Shown: in pieces, positions 18,392 through 52,228 of the stretch | Layout: the number at the start of each line of letters is the position of its first letter | Numbering within the stretch: the first letter of the stretch is position 1 | NCBI GenBank assembly: GCA_001899255.1 | Contig: MKVX01000018.1 | Location: 1,055,150 to 1,119,149 of the forward strand | Direction: 5' to 3' | Length of the DNA: 64,000 nt | From: Rhizobiales bacterium 62-47 | GTDB taxonomy: Bacteria > Pseudomonadota > Alphaproteobacteria > Rhizobiales > Xanthobacteraceae | The notes under the pieces: generated by a model | The model's database searches: none | The model's input: only the letters and a program-made list of their open reading frames with translations | What the model was told of the DNA's origin: nothing | Program-made: the position numbers and the translations under genes

Positions 18392-18406
18392 GAACACATA
18401 TGGAAC
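18392..18406 (+). promoter_or_regulatory. LexA operator (SOS box) of lexA
   Basis: An exact GAAC-N7-GAAC direct repeat, the alphaproteobacterial LexA binding site: GAAC at 18392–18395 and 18403–18406. It lies 115 bp before the lexA start and so predicts autoregulation. A second, imperfect GTTC-N7-GTTT lies at 18418–18432, where the last base of the second half fails. A clear -35/-10 pair could not be assigned. Confidence 0.85.
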
Positions 18407-18520: not shown

Positions 18521-19219
18521 ATGCTGACACGCAAACAATTCGAGCTGTTGCGATTCATCAATGAGCGCCTGAAAGACACCGGCGTCCCCCCGTCCTTCGA
18601 CGAAATGAAGGATGCGCTCGACCTGCGCTCCAAATCCGGCATCCATCGGCTGATTACCGCGCTGGAAGAACGCGGCTTCATTCGCCGCCTGCCCAACCGC
18701 GCCCGCGCCATCGAGGTCATCAAGCTGCCGGAGACGGCGGCCAGCGGCAATGCCCGCCGCGGTTTCACGCCCAGCGTCATCGAAGGCAATCTCGGCAAGA
18801 TCCGCCCCTCCAGCGGTATGGAGAGCGATGGAGAAACCCCGGTCGCCGTCCCGGTGATGGGACGCATCGCGGCCGGTACGCCGATCGAGGCGCTGCAAAC
18901 GCGCAGCCACACCATCAGCGTGCCGCCCGACATGCTCGGCTCCGGTGAACATTACGCACTCGAGGTGCGCGGCGATTCGATGGTCGATGCCGGCATTCTC
19001 GATGGCGACATGGCGCTGATCCAACGCAACGACAGCGCGGACACTGGCGACATCGTCGTCGCCCTGATCGACGAGGAAGAGGCTACGCTGAAGCGCTTTC
19101 GCCGCCGCGGCGCGTCGATCGCGCTGGAACCCGCGAACACCGCTTACGAGGTCCGCATCCTGCCGCCGAACCGCGTACGCATTCAGGGCAAGCTGATCGG
19201 GCTGTACCGGCGTTATTGA
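18521..19219 (+). CDS. lexA: LexA repressor/autopeptidase
   Basis: A 232-residue SOS repressor. The N-terminal winged helix ([17 protein letters not shown], residues 1–65) binds operators. The C-terminal peptidase domain has the autocleavage Ala118–Gly119 bond in GRIAAGT, Ser153 in GDSMVDAG and Lys191 in EEATLKRF. RecA filaments trigger cleavage, which relieves repression. Besides its own operator at 18392, the window holds a double LexA operator at 49297–49329. It converges with comEC across an extragenic palindrome. Confidence 0.97.
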
Positions 19220-38277: not shown

Positions 38278-39041
38278 GCGCGACCCGATCCGGCTTTGGC
38301 CGCCAGGCCGCCGAAGCGCCGTTCGCGGCGAGCGTATTCGGCAATCGCCTCTTCGAGAGCGGCTTTGTCGAATTCCGGCCAATGAATCGGTACGAACACC
38401 AGTTCGCTATACGCCGCCTGCCACATCAGGAAGTTGGACAGACGCTGCTCGCCGCTGGTGCGGATGATAAGATCGGGATCGGGAATATCCGGCGCGTCGA
38501 GATACTTGCTGACAGTTTCGACATCGATCGACGACGGATCGCGTTTGCCTTCGGCCACCTCGCGCGCCAGCTTCTGCGCGGCGTTGGCGATTTCCTGCCG
38601 TGAACCGTAATTGAACGCCACGATCAGATTGAGCTTGGTGTTGGCGCGCGTCAGTTCCTCGGCTTCGTTCAACAGCGCGCAAATATCGGGCTCCAGCCCT
38701 TCGCGCTCGCCGATCACCCGCACCCGCACGCCATCGCGATGCAGCGTTGCGAGGTCGTTGCGGATGAAGCGCCGCAGCAGGCCGAACAGATCGCCGATCT
38801 CGCTCGCCGGCCGCGACCAGTTTTCCGAACTGAACGAAAAAATCGTCAGGTAGCGGATGCCGAGTTCGCTGGAGGCCCGCACCACGCGGCGCAATGCCTC
38901 GACTCCGCGCCGATGACCTTCGGCGCGCGGCAATCCCCGTGCCGCCGCCCAACGTCCGTTGCCGTCCATGATGATCGCGACGTGCGCAGGCGCTCCGGTT
39001 TGATCCGGCGTATCGGCTGCGGGCATTGCGATATTCGACAT
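38274..39041 (-). CDS. uppS: Undecaprenyl diphosphate synthase (cis-prenyltransferase)
   Basis: A 255-residue enzyme extending farnesyl diphosphate to C55-PP, the lipid carrier for peptidoglycan and O-antigen. [19 protein letters not shown] contains the catalytic Asp26. [14 protein letters not shown] and [24 protein letters not shown] are further signatures, and the last holds the IPP-binding arginines. Met 39041 (MSNIAMPAA) was chosen over an upstream Met. Shares a GTGA overlap with cdsA. Confidence 0.97.
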
Positions 39042-45323: not shown

Positions 45324-45499
45324 ATTCTCTCCGCCTTCATCAACATCGAAATTAAAGAGCCTCGCGCATTCAGCGCGCTGCTGGCTGAACAGAATTTGAA
45401 CGAAAGTCGTTCCGAGTAAGGCAGTTCCACAACAAACGAACCGGCCGGCTTGCGCCGCCACGGCGAGATAGCTCAAATCAAACAGCGAGGAGCTTTGCC

Positions 45500-48400
45500 T
45501 CAGATTGTCTGGACGTCAACAACGCCCGACACCGCCTTGATGGCTCCGGCGATCTGCGGCGAGACCTTGTAGCGGCCGGGCAGCTTCATTTCGACTTCGG
45601 TTTCGAGGTCGAGCATCAGCACCAGCGACACGTCGCCTTCGCCGGCGGTGCGCCCCTGCGGAGCCGCAGCACCGGTGCCGCCTGCCGGGCCTTGCAGCCG
45701 CTTGGCGATCGACTCCAGCGACTTGGTGTTACGCAGGAATATCCGCAGCCCTTTTTGCGTCTTGGCGGCAGCATCGTCGAGCGGCTCGGCGTGCAGCACG
45801 CGCGCGCGCACCTCCTCGCCCTGCAGTTCCGCGCCCAACTGCAACAGCACGGCCGCGCCCGGCTCCAGCACCTCGCGGAACTGCGCCAGGCCTTCGGAGA
45901 ACAGCACGGCCTCGAAATGCCCGGTGGGATCGGACAGCCCGATGATGCCCATCTTGTTGCCGGTTTTGGTGCGCCGCTCCATGCGCGACACCACGGTCGC
46001 CGCGACCTTGCCGGCCGTCGCGCCGGTCTTCACCGCGCGCGAGAATTCGGCCCAGGACTGCACCCGCAGCCGCTTCAACACTGTCGCGTAGTCATCCAGC
46101 GGATGGCCGGACAGGAAGAAGCCGATGGCGTCGTATTCGCGGCGCAGGCGCTCCGCAGGCAGCCACGCATCGATGGCCGGCAACATGACGCTCGGTGCAT
46201 CCGCCATGCCGCCGAACATGTCGTTCTGGCCGGACGTCGCAGCCTCGTGGCCGCGCTGGCTGGCCGCGAGAATAGCTTCGGCGCCCGCGAACGCGCGCGC
46301 CCGATTGCTTTCGATGGTGTCGAACGCGCCGGCCGCAGCGAGACTTTCGATGACCCGCTTGTTAATGGCGCGCGGATTCACCCGTCCGGCGAAGTCGGCC
46401 AGCGAGGTAAACGCGGCGTTCTGCCGTGCCTCGACGATCTGCTCCACGGCATGCGCACCGACGCCCTTCAACCCTGCCAGCGCGTAGTAGATCGTGTTCT
46501 CGCCAACCTCGAATGTCGCGCCGGAGCGATTGACCGACGGCGCCTCGACCTTGATGCCGAGCCGTTGCGCCTCGGCACGAAATTCCGACAGCTTGTCGGT
46601 GTTGCTCATGTCGAGCGTCATCGACGCGGCGATGAATTCGACCGGATAGTGCGCCTTCATGTACGCGGTCTGGTAAGAGACCAGCGCATAGGCCGCCGCG
46701 TGGCTCTTGTTGAAGCCGTAGTCGGCGAACTTCGCCAGCAATTCGAAAATGGTATCGGCCTGCGCTTGCTGCACGCCGTTCTTGACCGCGCCGGCGACGA
46801 AGATCGCGCGCTGCTTTTCCATTTCGGCGCGGATCTTCTTGCCCATCGCGCGGCGCAGCAGGTCGGCGTCGCCGAGCGAATAACCCGCCATCACCTGCGC
46901 GATCTGCATCACCTGTTCCTGATAGATGATGACGCCGAACGTCTCCTTGAGAATCGGCTCCAGCATCGGGTGCAGATATTCCGGCTCCTCTTCTCCATGC
47001 TTGCGCGCGCAATAGGTCGGGATGTTCGCCATCGGACCCGGCCGATACAGCGCCACCAACGCGATGATGTCCTCGAAGCGGTCCGGCCGCATGTCGACCA
47101 GTGCGCGCCGCATGCCCTGACTTTCAACCTGGAACACGCCGACCACATCGCCGCGCGTCAACATCTGATAGGTCGGCGCGTCATCGAGCGGCAGCGTTGA
47201 GAGGTCGATGTGAATGTTGCGCTGCTTGAGCAACTTCACCGCGACGTCGAGCACTGTCAGCGTCTTGAGGCCGAGGAAGTCGAACTTCACCAGCCCCGCC
47301 GGCTCGACCCATTTCATGTTGAACTGCGTCACCGGCATATCGGATTTGGGATCGCGATAGAGCGGCACGAGATCGCTCAGGGGCCGATCGCCGATCACGA
47401 TGCCGGCGGCGTGGGTCGAGGCGTGACGATTGAGCCCTTCGAGCTTCTGCGCGATGGCGAACGCGCGCGCCACCACCGGATCTTCGTCGCGGAAGGCCTG
47501 CAGCTTCGGCTCGCTCTCGATCGCCGCCGACAACGTCACCGGTGCCGCGGGATTCTGCGGCACCAGTTTGGTCAGCTTGTCGACCTGCCCGTAAGGCATC
47601 TGCAATACGCGGCCAACGTCGCGCAGCACGCCGCGCGCCTGCAACGTACCGAACGTGATGATCTGCGCGACATGATCGCGGCCGTAACGCTGCTGTACGT
47701 AGTCGATGACTTCGCCGCGCCGGTCCTGGCAGAAATCGATGTCGAAGTCCGGCATCGACACGCGTTCGGGATTGAGGAAGCGCTCGAACAGCAGGCCGAA
47801 GCGGATCGGATCGAGGTCGGTGATGGTCAGCGCATACGCCACCAAAGAACCGGCGCCGGAGCCTCGCCCCGGCCCGACCGGAATGCCCTTCGACTTCGCG
47901 TGCTTGATGAAATCGGACACGATGAGGAAGTAGCCCGAATATTTCATGCGGGTGATGACATCGAGTTCGAAGTTCAGCCGCGCATTGTAGTCTTCCTCGC
48001 TGGCGCCCTGCGACAGGCCATGCAGCTTCAGCCGGCGCGCAAGACCCTCCTCGGCCTGCCGGCGCAATTCGGCCGCCTCCTCGCGCTCGGCATCGGCGCC
48101 GCTGGTGTTGGCGTCGACAGTAAAGTGCGGCAGGATCGGCTTGCGCGTGCGCGGACGGAACGCGCAGCGCGACGCGATCTCGACCGTGGAGGCCAGCGCT
48201 TCCGGCAGATCGGCGAACAGTACCGCCATCTCGGCGCGCGTCTTGAACCGATGATCCGGAGTCAACTGGTCGCGATCGGCTTCGGCGAGCAGCCGGCCGC
48301 CGGCGATGCACAGCAAGGCGTCGTGCGCTTCATAATCGTCGGCACTGGCGAAGTACGGCTCATTGGTCGCCACCAACGGCAGACCCTTAGCGTAGGCCAG

Positions 48401-49015
48401 ATCGATCAGGCCGGGCTCGGCGCGGCGTTCGCGCTCGACGCCGTGGCGCTGAAGCTCGATGTACAGCCGGTCGCCGAACAGCCCCGCCAGTTGGTCACAC
48501 CGTTGTGCCGCCAGCGCCGCATGATCGGCAGTGAGCGCCACGGCCAGCGGTCCCTCCGGGCCGCCGGTCAGCGCGATCAATCCTTCGGTTTCGTTTTCGA
48601 GCCACGCCAGCTTGATATGCGGCGTCTGGTTCACCGGCGTTTCAAGGAACGCACGCGAGTTGAGACGCATCAGGCTGCGATAGCCCTGCTCGCGCGACGC
48701 AAGCAGCACGATCCGCGACGGGGCGGTTACAGCGCTGGCGCGGGCATTGGGATCCTGATCGCCGAAATCGATGCCCAGTTCGCAGCCGACGATCGGCTGG
48801 ATGCCGTAACCGACAAGCTTCTCGGAGAATTCCAGCGCGCCGAACAGATTGTCGGTATCGGTCAACGCCAGGGCCGGCTGCCGGTCCGCCTTGGCGAGTT
48901 CGGCGAGCTTCTGCACCTTCATCGCGCCACGCAGCAGCGAATACGCCGAGTGGACGTGCAGGTGAATAAATCCGGGGCCTGCGGTCACAGGCGTCGACGT
49001 ATCGGTCTTGGGCAT
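45500..49015 (-). CDS. dnaE: DNA polymerase III alpha subunit
   Basis: A 1171-residue replicative polymerase of the DnaE1 type. The N-terminal PHP domain (FIHLHVHSAYSLLRGAMK, about residues 16–200) is followed by the C-family polymerase core. GPGRGSGAGSLVAYAL and MPDFDIDFCQDRRGEVIDYV (catalytic aspartates near residues 421–423) lie in the palm. A helix-hairpin-helix region (LAGLKGVGAHAVEQIVEAR) and an OB-fold (VAATVVSRMERRTKTGNKMGII) follow. Full length, start MPKTDTS at 49015. The gene upstream on the same strand is a predicted SOS-controlled small membrane peptide. Confidence 0.98.
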   Translation of the reverse strand: MPKTDTSTPVTAGPGFIHLHVHSAYSLLRGAMKVQKLAELAKADRQPALALTDTDNLFGALEFSEKLVGYGIQPIVGCELGIDFGDQDPNARASAVTAPSRIVLLASREQGYRSLMRLNSRAFLETPVNQTPHIKLAWLENETEGLIALTGGPEGPLAVALTADHAALAAQRCDQLAGLFGDRLYIELQRHGVERERRAEPGLIDLAYAKGLPLVATNEPYFASADDYEAHDALLCIAGGRLLAEADRDQLTPDHRFKTRAEMAVLFADLPEALASTVEIASRCAFRPRTRKPILPHFTVDANTSGADAEREEAAELRRQAEEGLARRLKLHGLSQGASEEDYNARLNFELDVITRMKYSGYFLIVSDFIKHAKSKGIPVGPGRGSGAGSLVAYALTITDLDPIRFGLLFERFLNPERVSMPDFDIDFCQDRRGEVIDYVQQRYGRDHVAQIITFGTLQARGVLRDVGRVLQMPYGQVDKLTKLVPQNPAAPVTLSAAIESEPKLQAFRDEDPVVARAFAIAQKLEGLNRHASTHAAGIVIGDRPLSDLVPLYRDPKSDMPVTQFNMKWVEPAGLVKFDFLGLKTLTVLDVAVKLLKQRNIHIDLSTLPLDDAPTYQMLTRGDVVGVFQVESQGMRRALVDMRPDRFEDIIALVALYRPGPMANIPTYCARKHGEEEPEYLHPMLEPILKETFGVIIYQEQVMQIAQVMAGYSLGDADLLRRAMGKKIRAEMEKQRAIFVAGAVKNGVQQAQADTIFELLAKFADYGFNKSHAAAYALVSYQTAYMKAHYPVEFIAASMTLDMSNTDKLSEFRAEAQRLGIKVEAPSVNRSGATFEVGENTIYYALAGLKGVGAHAVEQIVEARQNAAFTSLADFAGRVNPRAINKRVIESLAAAGAFDTIESNRARAFAGAEAILAASQRGHEAATSGQNDMFGGMADAPSVMLPAIDAWLPAERLRREYDAIGFFLSGHPLDDYATVLKRLRVQSWAEFSRAVKTGATAGKVAATVVSRMERRTKTGNKMGIIGLSDPTGHFEAVLFSEGLAQFREVLEPGAAVLLQLGAELQGEEVRARVLHAEPLDDAAAKTQKGLRIFLRNTKSLESIAKRLQGPAGGTGAAAPQGRTAGEGDVSLVLMLDLETEVEMKLPGRYKVSPQIAGAIKAVSGVVDVQTI

Positions 49016-49127
49016 CCGCTACTGGCTTTTGTAAACAAGGGGAATGAGACGGCAGAGCGCGACTCGCCGATCATCGTGCGGCGATGCTCCGCCCCTGTCC
49101 ACTTGCAATAGCCTGCTCCCGGTCGCT

Positions 49128-49152
49128 GTCCCGGCTTTCCTCAGGCCGGGAC
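49128..49152 (-). terminator. Hairpin between the small SOS gene and dnaE
   Basis: GTCCCGGC (49128–49135) pairs with GCCGGGAC (49145–49152) around nine bases, 31 bp beyond the small gene's stop. No T-run follows on the minus strand. It may end or stabilise the short SOS transcript before dnaE. Confidence 0.4.
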
Positions 49153-49183
49153 CGAACTGACCTCACCGCGTCACGCCCGGTCA

Positions 49184-49282
49184 TCAGAGCTGCGGGATCA
49201 CCTGTGCCCAAACCGCAACCATCCCCACGAACAAGGTAATCGACGTCAGCGCGGCAGCCTCTTCAACGAACACTTTCAACAT
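49184..49282 (-). CDS. Small (32-residue) single-pass membrane peptide under LexA control, SidA-like candidate
   Basis: A 32-residue peptide. A short amphipathic start (MLKVFVEEAAAL) leads into one hydrophobic helix (about residues 13–29, containing TLFVGMVAVWAQVI) and ends IPQL. A near-ideal GGAGG lies six bases before ATG 49282; an ATG three codons earlier overlaps that site and is less likely. Two exact LexA boxes overlap its predicted promoter, so it should be induced by DNA damage. By size, topology and control it recalls SidA, the 29-residue SOS-induced inner-membrane division inhibitor of Caulobacter that acts on FtsW. The functional parallel is inference: I cannot show homology. It lies 168 bp upstream of dnaE on the same strand. 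Confidence 0.75.
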   Translation of the reverse strand: MLKVFVEEAAALTSITLFVGMVAVWAQVIPQL

Positions 49283-49296
49283 ATTCGCCTCCATGA

Positions 49297-49311
49297 GAAC
49301 ATAAGACGAAC
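49297..49311 (-). promoter_or_regulatory. LexA operator, proximal box of the small membrane-peptide gene
   Basis: Exact GAAC-N7-GAAC on the + strand (GAAC at 49297–49300 and 49308–49311). It covers the expected transcription start and early leader, 14 bp before the ATG. Confidence 0.85.
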
Positions 49312-49339
49312 ATTGTTCTAGTTTTGTTCTGAGAGTCAA
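49312..49339 (-). promoter_or_regulatory. Candidate promoter of the small SOS gene
   Basis: On the minus strand TTGACT (49334–49339) and AACAAT (49312–49317) are 16 bp apart. LexA box 49315–49329 fills most of the spacer and overlaps the -10, so bound LexA would block polymerase. Transcription would start near 49305, leaving a leader of about 23 nt that contains GGAGG. Confidence 0.6.
49315..49329 (-). promoter_or_regulatory. LexA operator, distal box of the small membrane-peptide gene
   Basis: Exact GTTC-N7-GTTC on the + strand (GTTC at 49315–49318 and 49326–49329). With the proximal box it makes a symmetric 15–3–15 bp arrangement around ATT. Confidence 0.85.
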
Positions 49340-49514
49340 GCATCCAATTGAGCTGGAATAAACGACCCTAACAAATGGTTGATACCGTTGCCCCTGCATT
49401 GCGACGACAGCATCGGCGCTGCTCCGGAACGTGAGTTGACCTTAAGCGGCAATACCGGCTTGAGTTTGCATGAAGAATCACAGGACCGGCTGCGGCCGGC
49501 AGCGGAGGTTTAAG

Positions 49515-49778
49515 ATGCGTGCGGCAATTTTGGCGGTATTGGCCCTGGGCGTGACTGCGGCCATCGACGTGGCCCACGCGCAATCGCGGGAGCTCCCTTT
49601 TTGCATGAAGGGCCAAGGCATCGCCGACGCCCACGGCGATTGCAGCTTCGCCACTTACGAGCAGTGTGCGGCCAGCGCCTCGGGGCGCTACAATTATTGT
49701 GACGTGAATCCGTTCTATCGCGGAAATGCGGCACCTGCGCCGGCCCCTCAGCGACGCACACCCAATCGCGGGTACTGA
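49515..49778 (+). CDS. DUF3551-type small secreted cysteine-rich protein (copy 1)
   Basis: An 87-residue exported protein. A signal peptide (about residues 1–22, ending AHA) is followed by a compact domain with the pattern C-x12-C-x7-C-x10-C-x2-NPFY, then a Pro/Ala/Arg-rich tail. The four cysteines should form two periplasmic disulfides. GGAGG lies shortly before ATG 49515, fixing the start over a Met 15 codons upstream. The second copy follows 66 bp later on the same strand. DUF3551-like proteins are frequent and multicopy in Bradyrhizobium relatives; their function is unknown. Confidence 0.75.
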   Translation: MRAAILAVLALGVTAAIDVAHAQSRELPFCMKGQGIADAHGDCSFATYEQCAASASGRYNYCDVNPFYRGNAAPAPAPQRRTPNRGY

Positions 49779-49844
49779 CGCCGAGCCTGCGACGGGGGTT
49801 GACGGCGACGCAGTCGCCAATCGGCACGCATAAGGACGCGAACC

Positions 49845-50105
49845 ATGAGGATCCCCGCCGGTTTGCTGACGTTATGGGCAACTGGAATGGCGTTCACCGC
49901 AGTTACGCCGACGAGCGTTCGTGCTGACACCGACTATCCCGTTTGTCTGCACGTGTACGGTCCCGTGACCTACGATGAATGCCGCTACACGTCGATCGCT
50001 CAATGCACTCCGGCGGCCGTTGGCCGCCCGGCGTCGTGCATGATCAATCCATTCTACGCGGGGCCGAACGTTCCGCCTCGACGCAAGCCGCGCTACAACG
50101 GCTAA
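49845..50105 (+). CDS. DUF3551-type small secreted cysteine-rich protein (copy 2)
   Basis: An 86-residue paralogue of the preceding gene. A signal peptide runs to about residue 27 (SVRA), followed by C-x11-C-x7-C-x10-C-x2-NPFY and a basic tail (RRKPRYNG). It shares the cysteine spacing and the NPFY box with copy 1, but little else, so the duplication is old. It converges on lolD with 49 bp between stops. Function unknown. Confidence 0.75.
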   Translation: MRIPAGLLTLWATGMAFTAVTPTSVRADTDYPVCLHVYGPVTYDECRYTSIAQCTPAAVGRPASCMINPFYAGPNVPPRRKPRYNG

Positions 50106-50154
50106 CCGGCGGCATTTCAGCCACCGGTAACCGCTTCCCTGCCGTTTGCGGCGA

Positions 50155-50853
50155 TCAGTCCAGTTCGATGACCTGACCGTTCTCGAGCGAGACGCGGCGA
50201 TCCATTCGCGCCGCAAGGTCCATGTTGTGGGTCGCAATCAACATCGCGACACGCGTGGCGCTGACAAGTTGCATCAGCGCGTGGAAAACATGGTCTGCGG
50301 TATGCGGATCGAGATTTCCAGTCGGCTCGTCCGCCAGCAACACCCGAGGCGCATTGGCGACCGCACGCGCAATCGCGACGCGCTGCTGCTCGCCGCCCGA
50401 CAATTCCGACGGCCGATGCGTGACGCGCGCGTCGAGGCCGAGATAGGCAAGGATTTCGCGCGCGCGATCGGCGGCTTCACTGCGCTTCAGGCCACGGATC
50501 ATCTGCGGCATCATGACGTTTTCCAGCGCTGAGAATTCCGGCAGCAGCCGATGCGACTGATAGACGAACCCGATTTCGGTGCGGCGAATTCTGGTGCGCT
50601 CGGCATCGGACAGGCCTGACGTGGCGTCGCCGCCGACATAGACCTCGCCTTCGTCGGGCTGCTCAAGCAGCCCGGCGATGTGCAGCAAGGTCGATTTGCC
50701 CGATCCGGATGGCGCCACCAGCGCGACCGACTGCCCTGCCCACAGCGCCAGCTTGGCGCCGTCCAAAATCGTCAGCGTCGTCTCGCCCTGCTGATACTGG
50801 CGCCGGATGTCATGCAAATAGACAACCGGAATTTCCTCGGCCTCCTCCGCCAT
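50155..50853 (-). CDS. lolD: Lipoprotein-releasing ABC transporter ATPase LolD
   Basis: A 232-residue ATPase of the Lol system, which extracts lipoproteins from the inner membrane for delivery to LolA. Walker [10 protein letters not shown] (residues 47–55), the signature LSGGEQQRV and Walker [10 protein letters not shown] are intact. The DxxR-type N-terminus ([12 protein letters not shown]) and [11 protein letters not shown] fit the MacB/LolD branch. Start at 50853 ([10 protein letters not shown]), 8 bp after the lolC/E stop; an upstream extension lies inside that gene. Confidence 0.93.
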
Positions 50854-50861
50854 CTCAGCCC

Positions 50862-52130
50862 TCACTCGTACCGCAATGCTTCGACGGGATCGAGGCGTGC
50901 GGCACGCCACGAGGGATACAGCGTCGCCAGGAACGACAAGGTCAGCGCCATGATGACCACGGCGGTCGTTTCACCGACATCGATGACCGCCGGCAGCTTC
51001 GACAGGAAATACAGTTCCGGCGAGAACAGCTCGGTATTGGTCATCCACGACAGGAATTGCCGGATCGATTCAATGTTCAGACACACCAGCAACCCGACGA
51101 TAAATCCGGTCAGCGTGCCGACCACGCCGATGGCAGCGCCGGTGATGAGGAATATCCGCATGATGGAACCTTGCGAGGCCCCCATGGTGCGCAGGATGGC
51201 GATATCGCTGCCCTTGTCCTTCACCAGCATGATGAGGCCGGAGATGATGTTGAGCGCGGCCACCAGCACGATCAGCGTCAGGATCAGGAACATGACGTTG
51301 CGCTCGACCTGCAGCGCGTTGAAGAAGGTCGAATTGCGTTGCCGCCAATCGACCATGAAAATTGGCCGCCCCGCGGCCTCGGCAATCGATTTGCGGAATT
51401 GGTCGATCTTGTCGGGATTGGTGGTGTAGACCTCGATCGACGTCACATCGTTTGCGCGATTGAAATAGGCCTGCGCCTCGGCGAGCGGCATGAACACCAT
51501 TGTCGAGTCATATTCCGACATGCCGATTTCGAAGACCGCGGCGACCTTGTAAGGCTTGATGCGCGGCGTCGTGCCCATCGGCGTCACCGCGCCCCTCGGC
51601 GCGACCAGCGTGATGTTGTCGCCGGCATGAATCGAAAGCTGATCGGCGAGCCGGCGGCCGATCGCTACGCCCTGCGCATCGTCGAAGCCTTCCAGCGTGC
51701 CCTGCTTGATGTTCTTGGCGATCGACGTGATGTTATCGAGATCGCCGGCGCGGATGCCGCGCACCAGTACGCCCGAGGCATTGAAGGGAGAAGACGCCAG
51801 CGCCTGCCCGTCCACCACCGGCGCAGCCAGTCGAATGCCCGCCACCTGATTGATGCGATCGGCGACATCCTTCCAGTCGGTCAGCGGGCTCTCCAGCGGC
51901 TGCACCAGCAGGTGCCCGTTCAGCCCGAGGATCTTGTCGAGCAGTTCCTTGCGGAAGCCGTTCATCACCGCCATCACGATGATCAACGTCGCGACGCCGA
52001 GCATGATGCCGAGAAACGAGAACCCGGCGATGACCGAGATGAATCCTTCCTTGCGCCGCGCCCGCAGATAACGCTTCGACAGCAGCCATTCGAAGGCCGC
52101 GAAAGGTGGGGTTCGAACTGGCTCGCTCAT
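50862..52130 (-). CDS. lolC: Lipoprotein-releasing ABC transporter permease LolC/LolE
   Basis: A 422-residue inner-membrane permease. One N-terminal helix ([34 protein letters not shown]) is followed by a large periplasmic MacB-PCD-type domain (about residues 55–270) and three C-terminal helices ([20 protein letters not shown] onward). Alphaproteobacteria typically carry a single LolC/E-type permease (LolF-like) acting as a homodimer, in contrast to the LolC plus LolE pair of E. coli. Only one is present here. The start MSEPV at 52130 was preferred because a GGAT precedes it; ATG 52142 is also possible. Followed directly by lolD. Confidence 0.92.
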
Positions 52131-52228
52131 GGCATCATCCATCGTTCGAATTTCACACGATTCGGGCTAATTCTAGCCGCGCCAACTGGCAATGTCCGCG
52201 AGCGGACGGTGGATAAATCATCACAACT

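Follow-up and report, generated by a model that had tools for sequence, protein, structure and literature searches.

A 64,000-nt stretch of the genome of Rhizobiales bacterium 62-47 (contig MKVX01000018.1, positions 1,055,150 to 1,119,149; hereafter the window) contains a frame of 32 codons upstream of dnaE, behind two sites of the LexA type. This raises the question whether so short a frame is a gene and, if so, whether its product could be an SOS-induced inhibitor of cell division comparable to SidA of Caulobacter. The features of the window that bear on this question are the following:

18392-18406: single LexA box of lexA
18521-18709, plus strand: match to lexA
38602-38616 and 45387-45401: further boxes, likely due to chance
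45500-49015, minus strand: dnaE (DNA polymerase III alpha), downstream neighbour, beginning 168 nt past the peptide gene
49128-49152, minus strand: 8-bp GC-rich hairpin between the peptide gene and dnaE
49187-49282, minus strand: peptide gene (MLKVFVEEAAALTSITLFVGMVAVWAQVIPQL), by the best reading a sidA orthologue, 32 codons, single predicted helix (ATG 49282-49280, stop 49184-49186)
49288-49292, minus strand: Shine-Dalgarno sequence GGAGG, 5 nt before the ATG
49297-49311, minus strand: LexA box 2, reading GTTC-N7-GTTC in the coding direction, directly downstream of the -10
49315-49329, minus strand: LexA box 1, reading GAAC-N7-GAAC in the coding direction, lying in the spacer between -35 and -10 and reaching into the -10
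49297-49329: 33-bp mirrored double operator GAAC-N7-GAAC-N3-GTTC-N7-GTTC, an exact match whose geometry was counted across genomes
49312-49339, minus strand: sigma-70-type promoter-like site TTGACT-N16-AACAAT, found by motif scan
49470-49778 and 49845-50105, plus strand: tandem pair of DUF3551 genes, flanked by the lolD-like gene and the peptide gene
50155-50910, minus strand: lolD-like ABC ATPase gene, upstream neighbour on the strand of the peptide gene (best NCBIfam family LolD, E 8.5e-77, 257.6 bits, under the cut-off of 307.75)
50862-52142, adjoining the lolD-like gene: lolC/E-like permease (NCBIfam lolCE, above cut-off)

Re-analysis of the window recovered what the original prediction had described here, i.e., the 32-codon frame with one helix, the GGAGG and the TTGACT-N16-AACAAT promoter, and the coordinates agree with its placement of box 1 in the spacer and of box 2 over the likely start region. 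The promoter-like site was observed once, compared to a mean of 0.1 in 50 shuffled sequences. An alternative in-frame ATG at position 49294 would extend the peptide to 36 residues, while the start at 49282 is common to all 25 aligned rows, with GTG (read as M) in L029. For the 36-residue form, AlphaFold2 predicted one helix comprising residues 2-35 (mean pLDDT 95). Searches with the peptide against Pfam and NCBIfam matched no family, plasmid and phage collections gave no match to the window peptide or to two provirus-type copies (one per collection), and an Rfam search of positions 48900-50200 was likewise without a match. The gene for lexA is located within the same window, about 31 kb from the peptide gene. 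Since both lexA and recA of this genome carry a box of the LexA type, the box type found before the peptide gene fits its host.

Matches to the peptide at E<=1.3e-4 were obtained in 30 of 37 genomes of the family, among them all eight genomes of the genus, its own included, and in one genome of another family (G055). A profile (E<=1e-3) detected the peptide in 146 of 198 family genomes and gave no match in 52. Twelve profile-negative family genomes were inspected, ten of which yielded a dnaE region; within the 900 nt before dnaE, none of these ten contained an exact box or a box combined with an ORF, and only G016 contained a matching peptide. Four weak matches (G039, G048, G050, and G053; E 0.04-0.64) were all located directly 5' of dnaE. 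Among the eight genus members, the frame displayed a pS of 0.453 and a pN of 0.044 (pN/pS 0.097), and shifted frames reversed the ratio, with pS below pN. Judged by this substitution pattern, the peptide frame is under purifying selection, and the gene for the putative 32-residue membrane peptide is real and conserved.

Its position also suggests another function, namely that of a leader peptide of dnaE, or of a short by-product frame behind an SOS promoter that places DNA polymerase III under LexA control. Consistent with this, dnaE is the next gene downstream of the peptide in 24 of 30 loci, a count that includes that of the window, and a scan revealed no terminator-like site between the two genes. 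In five of the eight genus genomes (L003, L005, L006, L007, and L008), however, the arrangement is lolD-peptide-secE-nusG with both boxes kept and no dnaE within the 1.5 kb read behind the peptide; here, the SecE of L003 and a NusG as found in L006 and L007 scored above the NCBIfam cut-offs. The further idea of the original prediction, that read-through could raise dnaE expression, has the lack of a terminator-like site in its favor and these five genomes against it. A further locus, L022, has another downstream gene and again both boxes. Moreover, the conservation of the amino acids goes beyond that of an open frame alone, and the gap between peptide and dnaE folds no better than shuffled sequences (z -0.62). 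Since peptide and operator precede secE-nusG in five of eight genus genomes, we conclude that the peptide is not a dnaE leader, a function to which we attach little probability and which was set aside on the strength of this arrangement.

Returning to a division inhibitor, we looked for related peptides in the class. A profile search of 385 class genomes resulted in strong matches only in the two genomes of the window's family among them, the next best hit (E 0.002) lying in a long frame. Since similarity alone is too weak at this range, we instead read the 900 nt upstream of dnaE and recorded boxes and any small hydrophobic ORF following a box within 130 nt. The other-order set comprised 20 regions from 23 genomes with a DnaE match (24 searched). 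For Caulobacteraceae, where 22 loci among 80 were used, 21 of 22 genomes had a DnaE match, the exception being L123, a C. vibrioides MAG, and a further class set supplied 109 regions out of 269 genomes with a DnaE match, three of them from the window's order. The forward box GAAC-N7-GAAC was present in 12/20, 13/21, and 16/109 regions, respectively, and was followed by a small hydrophobic ORF in 10/20, 11/21, and 14/109. On the opposite strand, 2, 0, and 7 regions had a box and no region of the three sets had the combination of box and ORF, and Markov sequences gave on average 0.50, 0.35, and 1.25 boxes and 0.00 combinations. The exact forward box was absent in 8 of the 21 Caulobacteraceae and 93 of the 109 further class regions.

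Thus read, related peptides occur before dnaE in further families, both within the order and in the class, and all 21 Caulobacteraceae regions harbored a peptide of 29-30 residues directly 5' of dnaE (29 in 19 and 30 in two regions, counted from the nearest start). The 29-residue start is a choice, since eleven of these frames open at GTG or at a codon farther 5'. Two loci were tested for the other neighbor, L220 (Caulobacter sp. RHG1) and L222 (C. vibrioides OR37), and in both of them the peptide is located between dnaE and a gene for an inosine-uridine nucleoside hydrolase (PF01156, E 4e-76 and 2.4e-78, respectively).

For comparisons between families, we used the profiles A5 (the window's family, without the row of G055), A2 (Caulobacteraceae), and A4, a mixed set of other families from which G016 of the window's family was left out and whose rows are ORFs picked for their position before dnaE, mostly behind a box. 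A5 matched A4 with 96.6% (E 6.1e-10) and A4 matched A2 with 87.9% (E 3.3e-6), while the direct comparison of A5 with A2 gave 59.6% (E 8.9e-5; 36% identity over 25 columns), a moderate similarity. When 2707 frames of the dnaE strand were searched together with 2751 of the opposite strand (threshold E<=5), A5 matched 31 of the former versus one of the latter and A4 matched 49 versus none, where not every match on the dnaE strand is the peptide. At the 21 Caulobacteraceae loci, A5 found 13, with weak E values of 0.045-4.8, and A4 found 20 (E 4.9e-5 to 2.6); L209 had no frame in the searched frame set. Matches of A4 to its own members are circular because these ORFs were chosen by position, but those to Caulobacteraceae are not.

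SidA itself is described, in the part of the literature drawn on here, as a 29-residue inner-membrane protein acting on FtsW (PMC4211646) and encoded by CCNA_02004 (PMC10769358), the next locus tag, CCNA_02005, being an inosine-uridine nucleoside hydrolase (PMC3667746). As far as the cited sections give both numberings, dnaE is CC1926 (PMC1839093) and recN is CC1983 as well as CCNA_02062 (PMC1839093, PMC12700426), so that the offset of 79 at recN, which lies further along, places dnaE close to CCNA_02004, one or two genes away at most, without fixing the position exactly. Based on locus, length, and box, rather than on a letter-by-letter match, we strongly infer that the Caulobacteraceae peptide is SidA; a literature text search with the letters of the Caulobacter peptide gave no match.

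The window peptide resembles SidA in being a peptide of similar length (32 residues) with a single predicted helix, in the LexA-type sequences at its promoter, two exact boxes in this case, and in its place beside dnaE, the neighbor of the peptide both in the window and in all 21 Caulobacteraceae regions. It also has the pattern E-x2-A-L-x-S-x3-F-V-x-M-x4-A-Q in common with the L220 peptide read as SidA. In contrast, it is three residues longer, its operator is double and mirrored, and its upstream neighbor is the lolD-like gene instead of the nucleoside hydrolase of L220 and L222. Since locus, box type, and profile similarity all link it to the Caulobacter peptide, the SidA-like candidate of the original prediction emerges stronger than it was proposed, and the best explanation is that the window gene is very probably the orthologue of Caulobacter sidA, which would be controlled by LexA and would arrest division in the SOS response.

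The gene might instead encode a different SOS-induced membrane peptide, e.g., a depolarising toxin acting on the membrane rather than on the divisome, of the type to which the small hydrophobic SOS peptide TisB belongs. A single predicted helix would be compatible with such a toxin, and small hydrophobic SOS peptides such as DinQ do exist (PMC3567139, in part). We regard this as improbable, however, because the window peptide occupies the same locus as the peptide read as SidA and resembles it in profile comparison, and SidA, in the cited account, acts on FtsW in Caulobacter (PMC4211646). Other division inhibitors were compared by their described properties. In the sections cited, DidA of C. 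crescentus is likewise a damage-induced small inner-membrane division inhibitor, but it is a different gene whose product has 71 residues, is SOS-independent, and binds FtsN (PMC4211646). YneA of Bacillus, SosA of Staphylococcus (PMC6851548), and SulA of E. coli are SOS-induced division inhibitors as well, of which YneA is reported to act on FtsW (PMC13396833) and SulA on FtsZ (PMC4211646), and all three are different genes.

The sidA orthology proposed here comes with an operator of its own, two exact LexA-type boxes that mirror each other across 3 bp. Because about 97% of Caulobacter SOS promoters carry a single box, according to the portion of the study cited (PMC12700426), the double operator is a departure. 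The original prediction had called the two exact boxes matches of a rare pattern. This does not apply to the single box, which was counted 69+65 = 134 times in the genome versus 63+62 = 125 for the reversed control; within the window, GTTC-N7-GTTC occurred five times compared to a shuffle mean of 2.17, with 3 of 100 shuffles reaching five. It does apply to the paired geometry, since the 33-bp pair was present in 114 of 198 family genomes and its control in 0 of 198. Apart from G011, where it was found on two contigs, the pair occurred once per genome in the positive family genomes, and all 75 operator sites among those listed were located 10-84 nt upstream of a peptide match. Conservation in relatives had been named beforehand as a point on which the prediction could fail; this check did not refute it, as the frame is kept throughout the genus (8/8) and the pair extends to the family share given above.

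At the level of the order, the pair was found in 16 of 297 genomes (control: 1 of 297), namely in 10 of 11 genomes sampled from the window's family, in five of five of family f22, and in G677, where it is a GC-rich site and the stretch read contained no dnaE, lolC, or lolD. The five f22 sites lie between lolD and dnaE, before a hydrophobic peptide of 24-36 residues. The shortest peptides, 24 residues from an inner start, were seen in L346, L347, L348, and L349, each behind a full double operator.

For the details of the operator, 30 loci were compared, 29 from the family (including the window's own) and G055. Both boxes at 3-bp spacing were present in 24 of them; in L009 the boxes are 1 bp apart, and the remaining deviating loci lack one box or have a box elsewhere. 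In 26 of the 30 loci, again counting the window's own, a TTGAC begins 8-11 nt ahead of box 1, and a Shine-Dalgarno-like stretch is present in all 30. In three genomes of genus g23 (L028, L341, and L342), both mirrored boxes are kept about 31 bp apart. Taken from these counts, the mirrored pair is an unusual operator that in the family usually stands before, and marks, one gene. The usual form elsewhere in the class appears to be the single GAAC-N7-GAAC box, as shown in part by the dnaE regions, and the second box, in mirror orientation, seems to have been added later in the window's family and in f22. A chance open frame beside chance boxes, to which the background level of single boxes would lend itself, has a negligible probability in view of the counts of the pair in family and order, the profile matches, the pN/pS value, the location of all listed operator sites before the peptide, and the lack of box-ORF combinations on the opposite strand.

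For the sidA orthologue, the following mechanism is proposed. LexA dimers on the two mirrored boxes would cover the spacer, the -10, and the start region, exclude the polymerase, and keep the gene silent. By analogy with known LexA biology, DNA damage would activate RecA, LexA would cleave itself, and the peptide would be made. Like SidA, it would then enter the inner membrane and stall the late divisome, for which contact with FtsW is the most likely route, so that division would be held back until repair. In the cited part of the modelling work, SidA is placed next to TM7 of FtsW with low confidence (PMC13396833), and lexA mutants of Caulobacter are reported to filament because of sidA (PMC12700426, in part). 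The second box would likely serve a tighter or cooperative repression of this growth-arresting peptide.

Extra copies of the peptide family were detected in L337, L338, L339, L340, and L343 (position 2368, plus strand), with neither dnaE nor lolD within 3 kb and with no exact LexA box within 300 nt. Four of six neighbor proteins of L337, L338, and L340 matched PHROG families, including repressor and processivity-factor families, and the copy of L340 is also present on a 53.5-kb contig predicted to be viral (L343). By their surroundings, these copies appear to be SidA-like peptides on proviruses.

Taken together, we tentatively suggest, at slightly less than even confidence, that SidA is an ancestral SOS division checkpoint shared by a large part of the Alphaproteobacteria, passed down in the space ahead of dnaE and readily missed because it is so small. 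The window's family and f22 would have gained the 33-bp lock, as a rule one per genome, on which two LexA dimers would face each other and silence the gene cooperatively, and the box-less SidA-like peptides of proviruses may stop the division of their hosts. What may be new here is how far SidA extends, together with the mirrored operator. For the window's order, a candidate SOS division inhibitor can now be named, where a limited literature search found none described, and in alphaproteobacterial genomes the search can simply start directly 5' of dnaE. As the double operator marks one gene per genome, paired direct-repeat LexA sites would be open to testing for how they set when a growth-arresting gene comes on and how much it leaks.
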